A program made the translations under genes and the position numbers. From Acidobacteriota bacterium (GTDB taxonomy: Bacteria; Acidobacteriota; Vicinamibacteria; Vicinamibacterales; UBA2999): DNA of 64,000 bases. Position 1 is the stretch's first letter; the number at the start of each line of letters is the position of its first letter. The notes beneath the pieces were generated by a model that was given only the letters and a program-made list of their open reading frames with translations, ran no database searches and was not told the origin of the DNA. The DNA lies in the NCBI GenBank assembly GCA_021730945.1, contig JAKFYH010000016.1:1-64000 (forward strand), read 5' to 3'. Shown here in pieces: positions 22,590 to 32,436 of the stretch.

Positions 22590-23243
22590 TCAGGAAACTT
22601 CTGGCAAGCCGAGCGCGGCGCGGACAAAGTCCTGCTCGGGCAGGCCGCCGAGGATCTCGATCGTCTCGTTGACGATGGTTTTCGGCACGCCGGTGACTCG
22701 GTACTTGCGGCTCAGGTCCATGAACTCGGTGGCTTCGACGGCATCCGCGGTGATCATGGGGTTGGCCGCTGCCATCTTGTGTGCGAGGACGACCGCCCTC
22801 GGACAGTGCGGTCAAGTGGGTGTCGAGAACACCTGGATATGCGTCGGCGTGGTGACCGCCTGGACCCACGCCATGGTCTCGGGTTCGAAGTCGATCTTGC
22901 CGGTGCCTGCGACCAGGATCGCCTCGACCAGGCCGACGAACTCATAGCCGGTCGGGGCGCCGTACATGCGCATGCGGGTGTCGACATCGTCACTGAGAAT
23001 GACGATGGCCGGTGCCTTGTCGACCTTGTACTTCGCCTTGTCGTCCAGATCGAGGACGAAGTTCTTCTCGACCACGGTGATCTTTTCGTTCAGTGACGCG
23101 ATCTCGTCGAGGATTTGCTTGGCCACGGGACCGCTCTCGGACCCGCCGAAGGTTTGCGTGAAGAGCAGCAACTGCACGGGTTGGGTGATGGTGGCGAGGT
23201 GCTGCCTGAGCGTTGCCTCGTCTTGCGGTGATAGAAGGCCCAT
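22590..23243 (-). CDS. Thioredoxin-fold (PDO/glutaredoxin-like) selenoprotein; in-frame TGA (22812..22814) read as Sec
   Basis: ORFs 22812..23243 and 22590..22775 are in one frame separated only by TGA; spanning peptide HIQVFSTPT-U-PHCPRAVVLAHKMAAANPMI; cis-Pro region VTGVPKTIVN. Confidence 0.85.
22780..22805 (-). promoter_or_regulatory. Candidate bacterial SECIS hairpin
   Basis: Minus strand TGT C CGAGGGC-GGTC-GTCCTCG C ACA: 7-bp upper stem (one G-U), C-C mismatch, 3-bp lower stem, GGUC loop starting 17 nt after the TGA. Confidence 0.75.
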
Positions 23244-24342: not shown

Positions 24343-25002
24343 ATGTCGCAGGTATTCCCAAAGAGCGCTAACGCCTGGTCCAAGGCCAGCGTGCTCGCCA
24401 TCGTGTTCGTGCTGCTCAGCGTCGGCTGGGTAGTGCTCACGATTCAACGATCAGATTTCGTCACGTCGGCAAATCAGTTCGTCGAGCAACCTGTCCAATT
24501 CAGTCACCAGCATCACGCCGGCGGCATTGGCATCGATTGCCGCTATTGCCACACCTCGGTGGAAATCTCGCCGTCGGCGGGCATTCCGCCGACCAAGACC
24601 TGCATCAACTGTCACTCGCAGATCTGGTCGACCAGCCCGTACCTCGAACCGGTGCGAGCGAGCTTCCGCGACGACAAGCCGCTCAACTGGGTCCGCGTGC
24701 ATGACCTGCCGGACTTTGTCTATTTCAACCACAGCATCCACGTCACCAAGGGTGTCGGCTGCGAAACCTGCCATGGCCGCGTCGACAAGATGCCGCTGAT
24801 GATCCAGAAGGCGTCGCTGCAGATGGAATGGTGCCTCGACTGTCATCGCGACCCCTCGCGCTACGTGCGCCCGCGAGACCAGATTACGACCATGGGCTAC
24901 CAGCCCGCCGTGGCACAGGCTGAACTTGGTCCGCGCCTGGTCAAGGAATACAAGATTGCCGGCCTCGAACACATGACTAGTTGCTCGGTGTGCCACCGAT
25001 GA
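24343..25002 (+). CDS. actA: Alternative complex III pentaheme cytochrome c, ActA
   Basis: Five CxxCH motifs (CRYCH, CINCH, CETCH, CLDCH, CSVCH); first gene of the cluster. Confidence 0.92.
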   Translation: MSQVFPKSANAWSKASVLAIVFVLLSVGWVVLTIQRSDFVTSANQFVEQPVQFSHQHHAGGIGIDCRYCHTSVEISPSAGIPPTKTCINCHSQIWSTSPYLEPVRASFRDDKPLNWVRVHDLPDFVYFNHSIHVTKGVGCETCHGRVDKMPLMIQKASLQMEWCLDCHRDPSRYVRPRDQITTMGYQPAVAQAELGPRLVKEYKIAGLEHMTSCSVCHR

Positions 25003-25076
25003 CCAACACAGAGGGTGCCTTGCCAACCAGGGCCGCAGATAACGCAGATCACGCAGATCAAAAGGCTCACCGTTCG

Positions 25077-28213
<3,137 letters not shown>

Positions 28214-28214
<1 letters not shown>

Positions 28215-29602
28215 TGGCCAACCACTCGCATAACACGGCGCTGCTCGAAGAGACGCCGGTGATCCTGCCGGGTCACGACTTCGAGACCGTCACCGAGACC
28301 ATTGCCGAAATCCCGCTGTCCAAGCGCTTCCCGCTGGGCTGGATCGGCGTGCTGCTGATCGGCGTGGGCCTGGCCGGCATGCTGCACATGGCGCTCGGCT
28401 ACCTGCTGCTCAAGGGCATCGGCATCTGGGGCAACAACGTGCCGGTCGGCTGGGCGTTTGACATCATCAACTTCGTCTGGTGGATCGGCATCGGCCACGC
28501 CGGCACGCTGATCTCGGCCATCCTGCTGTTGTTCAAGCAACAGTGGCGCATGTCGATCAGCCGCTTCGCTGAAGCGATGACCATTTTCGCGGTGGCCTGC
28601 GCGGCGATCTTCCCGGTCTTCCACACCGGCCGTCCGTGGCTGGCGGCCTATTGGCTGTTCCCCTATCCCAACGCCATGGGCCTGTGGCCGCAGTTCAAGA
28701 GCCCGCTGATCTGGGACGTGTTCGCGGTCTCGACCTACGCCACCGTTTCGATCGTGTTCTGGTACATCGGCATGATTCCCGACATGGCGACGCTGCGCGA
28801 CCGCGCCGTGTCCAGGGTGAAGGCGACCATTTACGGCATGCTGTCGCTTGGCTGGCGCGGTTCGGCGCGTCACTGGCATCGCTATGAAGTGGCCTCGTTG
28901 ATTCTCGCCGGCCTTTCGACGCCGCTGGTGCTCTCGGTGCATACGGTGGTGAGCTTTGACTTCGCGGTGTCGGTGATTCCCGGCTGGCACGCCACCATCT
29001 TCCCGCCCTACTTCGTCGCCGGCGCCATTTACGCCGGGTTTGCCATGGTGTTGACGCTGGCGATTCCGGTGCGCCGTTTCTACGGCATGGAAAGCCTGAT
29101 CACCATGCGGCACATCGACAACATGGCGAAGATCACGCTGGCGACCGGCCTGATGGTCGGCTACGGCTACGGCGTGGAGGCGTTCTTCGCGTGGTACAGC
29201 GGCAGCCCGCATGAGCGCTTCATGATGTGGAACCGCATGTTCGGTCCCTACGCCTGGTCGTACTGGACGCTGATCGCGATCAACGTCGTGATGATTCAGT
29301 TGCTGTGGCTCAAGAGCGTGCGCCAGAACAACGGCCTGCTGTTCGTCATGTCGTTGTTCATCGGCATCGGCATGTGGCTCGAGCGCTTCGTCATCATCGT
29401 GACCTCGCTCAACCGCGACTTCATCCCCGCGTCGTGGGGCATGTATTACCCGACCCAGTGGGACTTCATGACGTTCTTCGGGACCATCGGGTTGTTCCTG
29501 ACACTGTTCCTGCTGTTCCTGCGCTTCGTGCCGATGATTTCGATCTTCGAGGTCAAGATGCTGCTGCCGCAGTCGAAGGTGAAACATGACCATGTCCACT
29601 AA
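28214..29602 (+). CDS. actC: Alternative complex III membrane subunit ActC (NrfD-like)
   Basis: Polytopic NrfD/PsrC-like protein following actB. Confidence 0.93.
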
Positions 29603-30140
29603 CGAGACGGCCCAGCGGCTCCATGGCGTGATGGCCGAATTCGACTCGGCCCAGGAGCTGGTGGACGCGGCCCGTCAGACCATGGCGCACGGCTTCACGA
29701 AGGTCGAAGCCTATTCGCCGGTGCCGATCGAAGAGTTGAACGACATCATCCACAAGAAGCGGACCAAGCTGTCGCAGATCGTTCTGGCCGGCGGCCTGGC
29801 CGGCATGGCGACCGGCTTCGGGCTGCAGTACTGGGCGTCGGTGATCGAATTCCCGATGAACATCGGCGGCCGGCCCCAGGCCAGCTGGACCACCTTCATC
29901 GTCCCGTCCTACGAGCTGACGATCCTGTTTGCCGCGCTGTCGGCGGCAATCGGCATGATCGTCCTCAATGGGCTGCCGCAGCCGTATCACGCAGTGTTCA
30001 ACGTCGATCGCTTCTCGATGGCCAGCTCCGACAAGTTTTTCCTCGTCGTCGAGTCGGCGGATCCGAAGTTCGACCAGCCGGTGACGGCCGAGTTCCTGCG
30101 CAGCACCGGCGCGAAGGGAGTCTACGACGTTGACGAGTAG
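29586..30140 (+). CDS. actD: Alternative complex III subunit ActD (DUF3341)
   Basis: Two TM helices, MAEFDSAQELVDAAR; position in cluster. Confidence 0.9.
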   Translation: MTMSTNETAQRLHGVMAEFDSAQELVDAARQTMAHGFTKVEAYSPVPIEELNDIIHKKRTKLSQIVLAGGLAGMATGFGLQYWASVIEFPMNIGGRPQASWTTFIVPSYELTILFAALSAAIGMIVLNGLPQPYHAVFNVDRFSMASSDKFFLVVESADPKFDQPVTAEFLRSTGAKGVYDVDE

Positions 30141-30771
30141 GTCATTTGCTCTCGTGTTCCTGGCCGCTGCGGCGCTGGTGGCCGCTGGCTGCCGCCAGGA
30201 CATGCACGACACGCCGCGCTACGAGGCGTACGAGGCCAGCGCCACGTTCGCTGACGGCCGCGCGTCGCGCGGTGCCCCCACGGGCACGGTCGCTCGCGGC
30301 TGGCTGCGGGAAGACGAGGCGCTTTATACCGGCAAGGTGGCCGGAGAGCTCGTCGACCAGTTCCCGTTTGCGATTGCCCACGCCGATCTCATGCGGGGCC
30401 AGCAGCGCTTCAATATCTACTGCACGCCGTGCCACGGCAAGCTCGGTGACGGTCACGGGATGGTCGTGCAACGCGGCCTCCGCCAGGCCGCCTCCTACCA
30501 CCAGGACCGCCTGCGCGAGGAAAAGGCCGGCTACTTCTTCGACGTCATCACCAATGGCTTTGGCGCCATGCAGGGTTACGCGGAACAAGTTCCAGTCCGT
30601 GACCGCTGGCTGATCGTGGCCTACGTGCGGGCGCTGCAATTGAGCCAGCACGCATCGGTCAACGACGTGCCCGCCGACAAGCGCGGCGAGCTTGACGCCT
30701 CGGCCGCCGAGACGCCTTCGGCATCAACGGAGAAGCCGGTAGCGGCCGCTCCTGCTGCGGAGAAGCACTAG
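30130..30771 (+). CDS. actE: Alternative complex III monoheme cytochrome c ActE
   Basis: FNIYCTPCHGKLGDGHGMVVQRG; lipobox-like AAGC. Confidence 0.92.
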   Translation: MTSRSFALVFLAAAALVAAGCRQDMHDTPRYEAYEASATFADGRASRGAPTGTVARGWLREDEALYTGKVAGELVDQFPFAIAHADLMRGQQRFNIYCTPCHGKLGDGHGMVVQRGLRQAASYHQDRLREEKAGYFFDVITNGFGAMQGYAEQVPVRDRWLIVAYVRALQLSQHASVNDVPADKRGELDASAAETPSASTEKPVAAAPAAEKH

Positions 30772-31964
30772 TGTCGACTGTGACTTCGGAAACCTTTGCC
30801 GCCGGCGGCTCGCCGTTGCCCGGCATGAAGCAGTTCGGCCTGATGGCGGGCGTGCTCGGCGTGGTGCTGATCGGCGCCGGCTTCATGACCTCGAGCCTCG
30901 ATCGCTTCTACCAGGCCTACCTGGTGGCCTACACCTTCTGGATGGGGGTCGCGCTCGGCAGCCTCGCGCTGTTGATGGTGCAGCACCTCACTGGCGGCGC
31001 CTGGGGTGTTGTGCTGCGGCGTCCGCTCGAAGCCGCGGTCCGCACCATTCCGTTCATGGCCGTGCTGTTCCTGCCAATCGTGTTCGGCATGCACTCGCTC
31101 TACGAGTGGACCCACGAGAGCGCGGCCAGCGATCCGGTGCTGGTGCTCAAGGCCGGTTACCTGAACACCCCGTTCTTCCTGGTGCGGCAGGCCATCTATT
31201 TCGTCCTGTGGTCGGGTATGGGCTACCTGTTGACGTCGTGGTCGCTTGAACACGACCGCACCGGGGATCCGGCGCTGGTCGACAAGATGGCGCGACTGTC
31301 GGGTGCCGGCCTGGTCATCTACTTCCTCTCCGTGACCTTTGCCATGGTCGACTGGACCATGTCGGTCAACCCGCACTGGTTCTCGACCATCTGGGGCATG
31401 CTCTACATCGGCGGCCAGGCGTTGTCGGCCTTCGCTTTCGGCATTACCGTGCTGGTGATGTTGTCGCAGACCGCTCCGCTCAACCGGGTCCTGTCGACGC
31501 ATCACTTCCACGATCTCGGCAAGTTCCTGTTTGCCTTCCTGATGATGTGGGCGTACCTGTCGTTCTCGCAGTTCCTGATCATCTGGTCGGCGAACCTCCC
31601 CGAGGAGATTCCCCACTACCTGGTGCGCTGGGACAACAGCTGGAAATACCTGAGCGCCTTCATCGTCGTCGGCCACTTCATCGTGCCGTACTCGTTGCTG
31701 CTGTCGCGCGACCTGAAGAAGAACTCCGCCAAGCTGCGTGTGGTGGCGATTTGGATCATCCTGGCCCGCATCGCCGACTACTACTGGCACGTGGCGCCTG
31801 AATTCCACAAGGACGGGTTCAGCTTCAGCGTGTTCGACGTGGCGCTGCCACTGGCGCTCGGCGGCATCTTTATTTCGATCTTCGTGTCACAGCTGGCCGG
31901 GCGCTCGCTGCTGCCGGTCAACGACGCTGGGCTGGAGAAGGCACTGACGCATCATGTCCACTAA
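30771..31964 (+). CDS. actF: Alternative complex III membrane subunit ActF (NrfD-like)
   Basis: Polytopic quinol:cytochrome c oxidoreductase-like protein in cluster. Confidence 0.92.
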   Translation: MSTVTSETFAAGGSPLPGMKQFGLMAGVLGVVLIGAGFMTSSLDRFYQAYLVAYTFWMGVALGSLALLMVQHLTGGAWGVVLRRPLEAAVRTIPFMAVLFLPIVFGMHSLYEWTHESAASDPVLVLKAGYLNTPFFLVRQAIYFVLWSGMGYLLTSWSLEHDRTGDPALVDKMARLSGAGLVIYFLSVTFAMVDWTMSVNPHWFSTIWGMLYIGGQALSAFAFGITVLVMLSQTAPLNRVLSTHHFHDLGKFLFAFLMMWAYLSFSQFLIIWSANLPEEIPHYLVRWDNSWKYLSAFIVVGHFIVPYSLLLSRDLKKNSAKLRVVAIWIILARIADYYWHVAPEFHKDGFSFSVFDVALPLALGGIFISIFVSQLAGRSLLPVNDAGLEKALTHHVH

Positions 31965-32436
31965 TCATCACGCGCCTGACGCGGACACCGAGTACGGCCC
32001 GAACCCCCCGGGCGCGAAGTACGAGCACACCGACATCGACACGACGGTTGGCTACAAGTTCGCCCTGTGGTTGCTGGTGGCGATGGTGCTCTCGATGGGG
32101 ATCGTCTACGGCACGTTCTGGTTCTTCGAGGGCCAGTCGCAGTCGGCCGACGCGCTGGCGCAGAAGTACCCGCTGGCAGTCGGCCAGGAGAAGACTCCGC
32201 CCGCTCCGAACCTGCAGACACAGCCGTTCAAGGATGTCTACCTGCTGCGTCTGGACGAGGCCGAGAAGCTGGGCAGCTACGGCTGGGTCGACCAGGACGG
32301 CGGCGTCGTGCGCCTGCCGATCGATCGGGCGATGGAACTGACGCTCGGCAAACTGCCGACGCGGGCCGGCGGTGGCGATGGCCTCAACGTGGTCACGCAG
32401 GACAGCTCTTCGGGCCGGACGCTGGTGCCGCGGTAG
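31954..32436 (+). CDS. Single-TM hypothetical protein between ActF and SCO1
   Basis: One TM helix plus LGSYGWVDQDGGVVRLPIDRAMELTLGKLPTR; overlaps the actF 3' end. Confidence 0.75.
   Translation: MSTNHHAPDADTEYGPNPPGAKYEHTDIDTTVGYKFALWLLVAMVLSMGIVYGTFWFFEGQSQSADALAQKYPLAVGQEKTPPAPNLQTQPFKDVYLLRLDEAEKLGSYGWVDQDGGVVRLPIDRAMELTLGKLPTRAGGGDGLNVVTQDSSSGRTLVPR

Follow-up and report, generated by a model that had tools for sequence, protein, structure and literature searches.

The window, that is, the whole 64-kb stretch of acidobacterial DNA analysed here, very probably carries a gene for a selenoprotein of the PDO (TIGR02187) family, in which UGA codon 144 is predicted to specify selenocysteine (Sec) and which would act by the single-site mechanism proposed below. 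The preliminary description had reported two minus-strand ORFs in the same frame parted only by a TGA, and both their sequence and their coordinates are as it gave them (Table 1): the frame begins with an ATG at 23243, ends with a TGA at 22592..22590 and has the TGA at 22814..22812 as its sole interruption. The read-through protein also corresponds to the one described, except at its end, which runs ...ALGLPEVS* instead of stopping at ALGL. A same-frame ORF pair split by TGA says little by itself in a GC-rich window of this size, where 36 TGA-split frame pairs at least as large were counted. This frame stands above chance because homology to TIGR02187 extends over both sides of the TGA, third-position GC is the same before it (0.85) and after it (0.85), the region 3' of it is under purifying selection (dN/dS 0.06-0.35) and the TGA is kept in 17 other genomes.

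When read through, the protein gives one continuous match to NCBIfam TIGR02187 (PDO_seleno_TRX) over residues 7-209 (226.1 bits, E 2.9e-67; curated cut-off 185 bits), and Pfam Thioredoxin_3 matches over its C-terminal domain. The AF2 model, with 36 window or locus sequences as input (mean pLDDT 95.9, pTM 0.92), and its PDB matches (TM 0.89-0.93 to 1a8l, 2ayt and 5h29) have two tandem thioredoxin folds of the PDO/AhpF-NTD type, and in the model residue 144 immediately precedes helix 147-160, the site of the thioredoxin CxxC. The TGA does fall on the first Cys of a thioredoxin-type CxxC, as had been proposed, but the generic thioredoxin/glutaredoxin assignment has to be replaced by a two-domain PDO. 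The second Cys and the cis-Pro region, described earlier as intact, are so: column 144 is Cys or Sec, and C147 and V186-P187 are invariant in the alignment.

The N-terminal CxxC is missing in the bacterial family to which this protein belongs (f1), which has GGSESG instead, and is retained in the other Sec forms of the alignment outside f1 and f10. Owing to this loss, Sec144-Cys147 would remain as the sole redox pair at an active site, a situation shared with the AhpF N-terminal domain, and the protein, although a member of the TIGR02187 family, is no two-site PDO of the P. furiosus type. Family f10 (L039 and L043) has a second N-terminal CxxC loss, with ADPES/EDPES at this place, and comprises one Sec-form and one Cys-form member.

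Table 1. Features of the PDO locus, in window coordinates
Feature	Position	Strand	Remarks
Sec-containing PDO gene, predicted	22590..23243	-	217 aa read through; stop codon counted in
In-frame TGA, putative Sec codon	22812..22814	-	codon/residue 144; motif T-P-T-U-P-H-C
Resolving Cys147 (TGT) of UxxC	22803..22805	-	invariant in alignment A3
Putative bSECIS apical hairpin	22784..22801	-	-10.8 kcal/mol
14 codons after the TGA without nucleotide change	22770..22811	-	four congeneric genomes
Degenerate N-terminal active site	23130..23150	-	F-G-G-S-E-S-G (residues 32-38), not CxxC; alignment and PDB alignments
Zinc-ribbon protein gene, 104 aa	23298..23612	-	upstream of PDO; coding end ~57 nt before PDO start

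The TGA column and the selenocysteine machinery

Matches to the PDO were found in 59 of 297 genomes of the phylum, and the 49 closest homologues of this draw were read at the TGA column. The column held TGA in 18 of them and Cys (TGT/TGC) in 31, and nothing else, TAA and TAG being absent throughout, which bears out the earlier proposal that Cys should align with the TGA. A TAG in the match of one genome (G253), considered as a possible different recoding, proved to be the terminal stop, and the column of this genome is Cys (TGC). Named genomes, for the most part MAGs carrying the label Acidobacteria and including one Luteitalea, supplied 21 loci, of which 18 had TGA and three TGT, without any other stop; because at least six of these records also belong to the draw, the two counts are not additive.

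Since one step separates TGA from TGT or TGC, the active-site Cys codon could have been lost by nonsense mutation in a decaying pseudogene. Such an origin is very improbable in view of the recurrence of the TGA in 18 genomes of the draw and in 18/21 named-genome loci that share at least six records with it, of a column that is only ever TGA among the stop codons, and of the purifying selection on the coding region that follows. A one-base error of sequencing or assembly, conceivable in a draft genome of 67 contigs, is exceedingly improbable, as separately assembled relatives from different samples have the identical TGA and flanking bases.

When the active-site columns are left out, the tree requires seven Sec/Cys changes, at least four of which are forced by well-supported branches; to judge from these sequences, Sec and Cys have swapped repeatedly in the PDO family. 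A pairing of His (UPHC) with Sec and of Tyr (CPYC) with Cys agreed in three to four independent pairs, with none against, but it is not claimed here because p is no better than 0.125 and CPHC forms occur in named genomes (L086, L090).

All four components whose presence had been suggested as a check were found in the genome, namely SelA (E 1.3e-129), SelB (308 bits), SelD (352 bits) and a tRNA-Sec with anticodon TCA (61.9 bits). SelA was present in 18/18 genomes with the TGA form and in 11/31 with the Cys form (Fisher p = 3.2e-6, kinship ignored); of the Cys-form genomes of the same order, G261 is without a SelA match and G253 has a weak one (E 8.5e-5). An open frame by itself names no residue, and the UGA might be decoded otherwise than as Sec, either by UGA=Trp reassignment or by read-through with a near-cognate tRNA. 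We give this very little credence, considering that the PDO gene itself stops at TGA, that the UGA column aligns with a catalytic Cys and never with Trp, and that the genome has dedicated Sec machinery with a TCA-anticodon tRNA scoring as tRNA-Sec. Since the refutation tests that could be run left the Sec reading standing, we regard this reading as supported. The designation as a missed selenoprotein thus holds for its second word, through the Cys/TGA column and the Sec machinery, whereas "missed" is true only of gene callers that take every TGA as a stop, because the PDO family is already listed as a predicted selenoprotein.

Other candidate selenoproteins were observed in the same genome. 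The SelD gene (G000:C34, L017:1480-2528) is itself predicted to encode one, with an in-frame TGA (SCAG-TGA-ASK) followed by a strong hairpin. Several peroxiredoxin-fold genes are present, two of them with an in-frame TGA. In a peroxiredoxin-fold gene (G000:C13, L102, ~1501-1869) the in-frame TGA (...AFTGG-U-TAEC...) occupies the TxxU position of Sec peroxiredoxins, and the N-terminus of the product resembles a signal peptide. An AhpC-TSA-fold gene on the minus strand (G000:C1, L100, ~1501-1890) has an in-frame TGA in ...SADW-U-PYCK... and is a candidate UxxC thiol:disulfide oxidoreductase-like selenoprotein.

RNA signal downstream of the TGA

The sequence after the TGA, CCGCACTGTCCGAGGGCGGTCGTCCTCG, folds into CGAGGGC-GGUC-GUCCUCG, a hairpin with a GGUC loop that resembles a bacterial SECIS and is located 13-30 nt away, counted from the initial U of the UGA. 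The bSECIS of E. coli fdhF likewise has a GGUC loop, at a nearly equal distance from its UGA. When folding was compared with that of synonymous recodings, with the protein sequence kept fixed, the mean hairpin z was -1.86 in the 18 Sec forms, in contrast to -0.41 in the 31 Cys forms (Mann-Whitney p = 1.3e-6, an optimistic value given that the rows are related), and folding was better than the recodings at p < 0.1 in 15/18 Sec forms against 4/31 Cys forms. The hairpins of the deep Sec members L061 and L062 are weak.

Constraint at the RNA level was also found in four congeneric genomes, in which informative codons +1 to +14 are identical at the nucleotide level in 13/13 cases, against 52/129 elsewhere in the gene (p = 1.9e-5); no other window of the gene ranks higher, and the remainder frequently shows synonymous change in the same four genomes. 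Base-level invariance after the column was seen in none of six Cys-form comparisons from five families, and it did not reach significance in the Sec pairs of families f5 and f6. With G183 added to the genus the invariance weakens (p = 0.074); in this genome both partners of a stem pair differ, with CCC for CCG and CTG for CTC, which turns G-C into C-G. Covariation was present in the 4-nt-loop register and absent from the 5-nt-loop register. RNAalifold recovered no single consensus hairpin from 15 distinct Sec flanks, apparently because loop length varies across the Sec forms, and no Rfam family matched the gene region at E <= 1.

Proposed mechanism and relation to known systems

We infer the insertion of Sec and the direction, reductant and substrate of catalysis as follows. 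UGA codon 144 would be decoded by SelB with Sec-tRNA(Sec), guided by the hairpin that starts 13 nt and ends 30 nt past the first UGA base. In the resulting protein, with its first thioredoxin fold devoid of CxxC and its second carrying U144-P-H-C147, Sec144, most likely as the attacking selenolate, would hit a substrate disulfide or oxidised thiol, and Cys147 would resolve the Sec144 adduct. A cellular reductant would then reduce the selenenyl-sulfide again; this is probably the thioredoxin reductase of this genome, for which a match above cut-off was found. As the genome contains both this reductase and peroxiredoxin-fold genes, it is plausible that the protein serves to reduce peroxidases or oxidised proteins.

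With the PDOs of Pyrococcus furiosus (1a8l) and Aquifex aeolicus (2ayt) the protein shares the tandem thioredoxin folds (TM 0.92-0.93, 0.93 for P. furiosus; ~30% identity), but the second site of those PDOs has Cys and the first contains cysteines too, whereas here UxxC occupies the second site and the first is lacking. The fold is also that of the AhpF N-terminal domain (Enterococcus faecalis 5h29, Salmonella 1zyn; TM 0.82-0.89), in which the redox pair of the second fold alone is in use; unlike it, the present PDO stands alone, without fusion to a flavin reductase, and Sec replaces Cys.

A UxxC protein of TIGR02187 has been listed as a predicted selenoprotein since 2006 under the name "homolog of AhpF N-terminal domain (Grx-like domain protein)", with Carboxydothermus hydrogenoformans (ABB15282.1) and Symbiobacterium thermophilum as sources, according to the accessible portions of PMC1794560, PMC9312934 and PMC13188914. 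The family model and, as far as those portions go, the UxxC motif are common to these proteins and ours, which differs in coming from Acidobacteriota, in having lost the N-terminal CxxC and in being paired with an upstream zinc-ribbon gene; neither the loss nor the pairing is mentioned in the same portions of the three papers. Given the listing, the gene adds a member to a known family, one whose own lineage shows a single-site variation; it is no new family and otherwise confirms existing knowledge. Because gene calling with TGA as an obligatory stop splits the PDO gene in two, a predicted redox enzyme is missing from many acidobacterial genome annotations. The phylum also provides a naturally occurring set of Sec/Cys exchanges in one protein (at least four, most simply seven), with and without Sec machinery, which should be useful to test why selenium is retained. 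In the accessible part of the literature we found no description of such repeated interchange in the PDO family.

The upstream zinc-ribbon gene and its surroundings

The PDO gene is immediately preceded by a co-oriented zinc-ribbon gene in 11/49 phylum loci and 20/21 named-genome loci, an arrangement conserved throughout the lineage, and the two genes likely belong to one transcription unit. The zinc-ribbon product of the window is cysteine-rich; it has no Pfam match, and its NCBIfam zinc-ribbon matches are all sub-threshold. It is possible, although we consider it rather unlikely, that the Sec-PDO of this acidobacterial lineage is a single-site reductase, with the N-terminal CxxC lost and Sec-Cys kept, that works with the small zinc-ribbon partner encoded upstream as a selenium-based thiol/zinc redox pair, an arrangement for which no description was found in the accessible part of the literature.

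On the opposite strand, the PDO locus is adjoined by a region (window 24343-32436, plus strand) with a domain match to multihaem cytochrome c, and the ORFs after the cytochrome resemble, by eye, an alternative complex III-type respiratory gene cluster.
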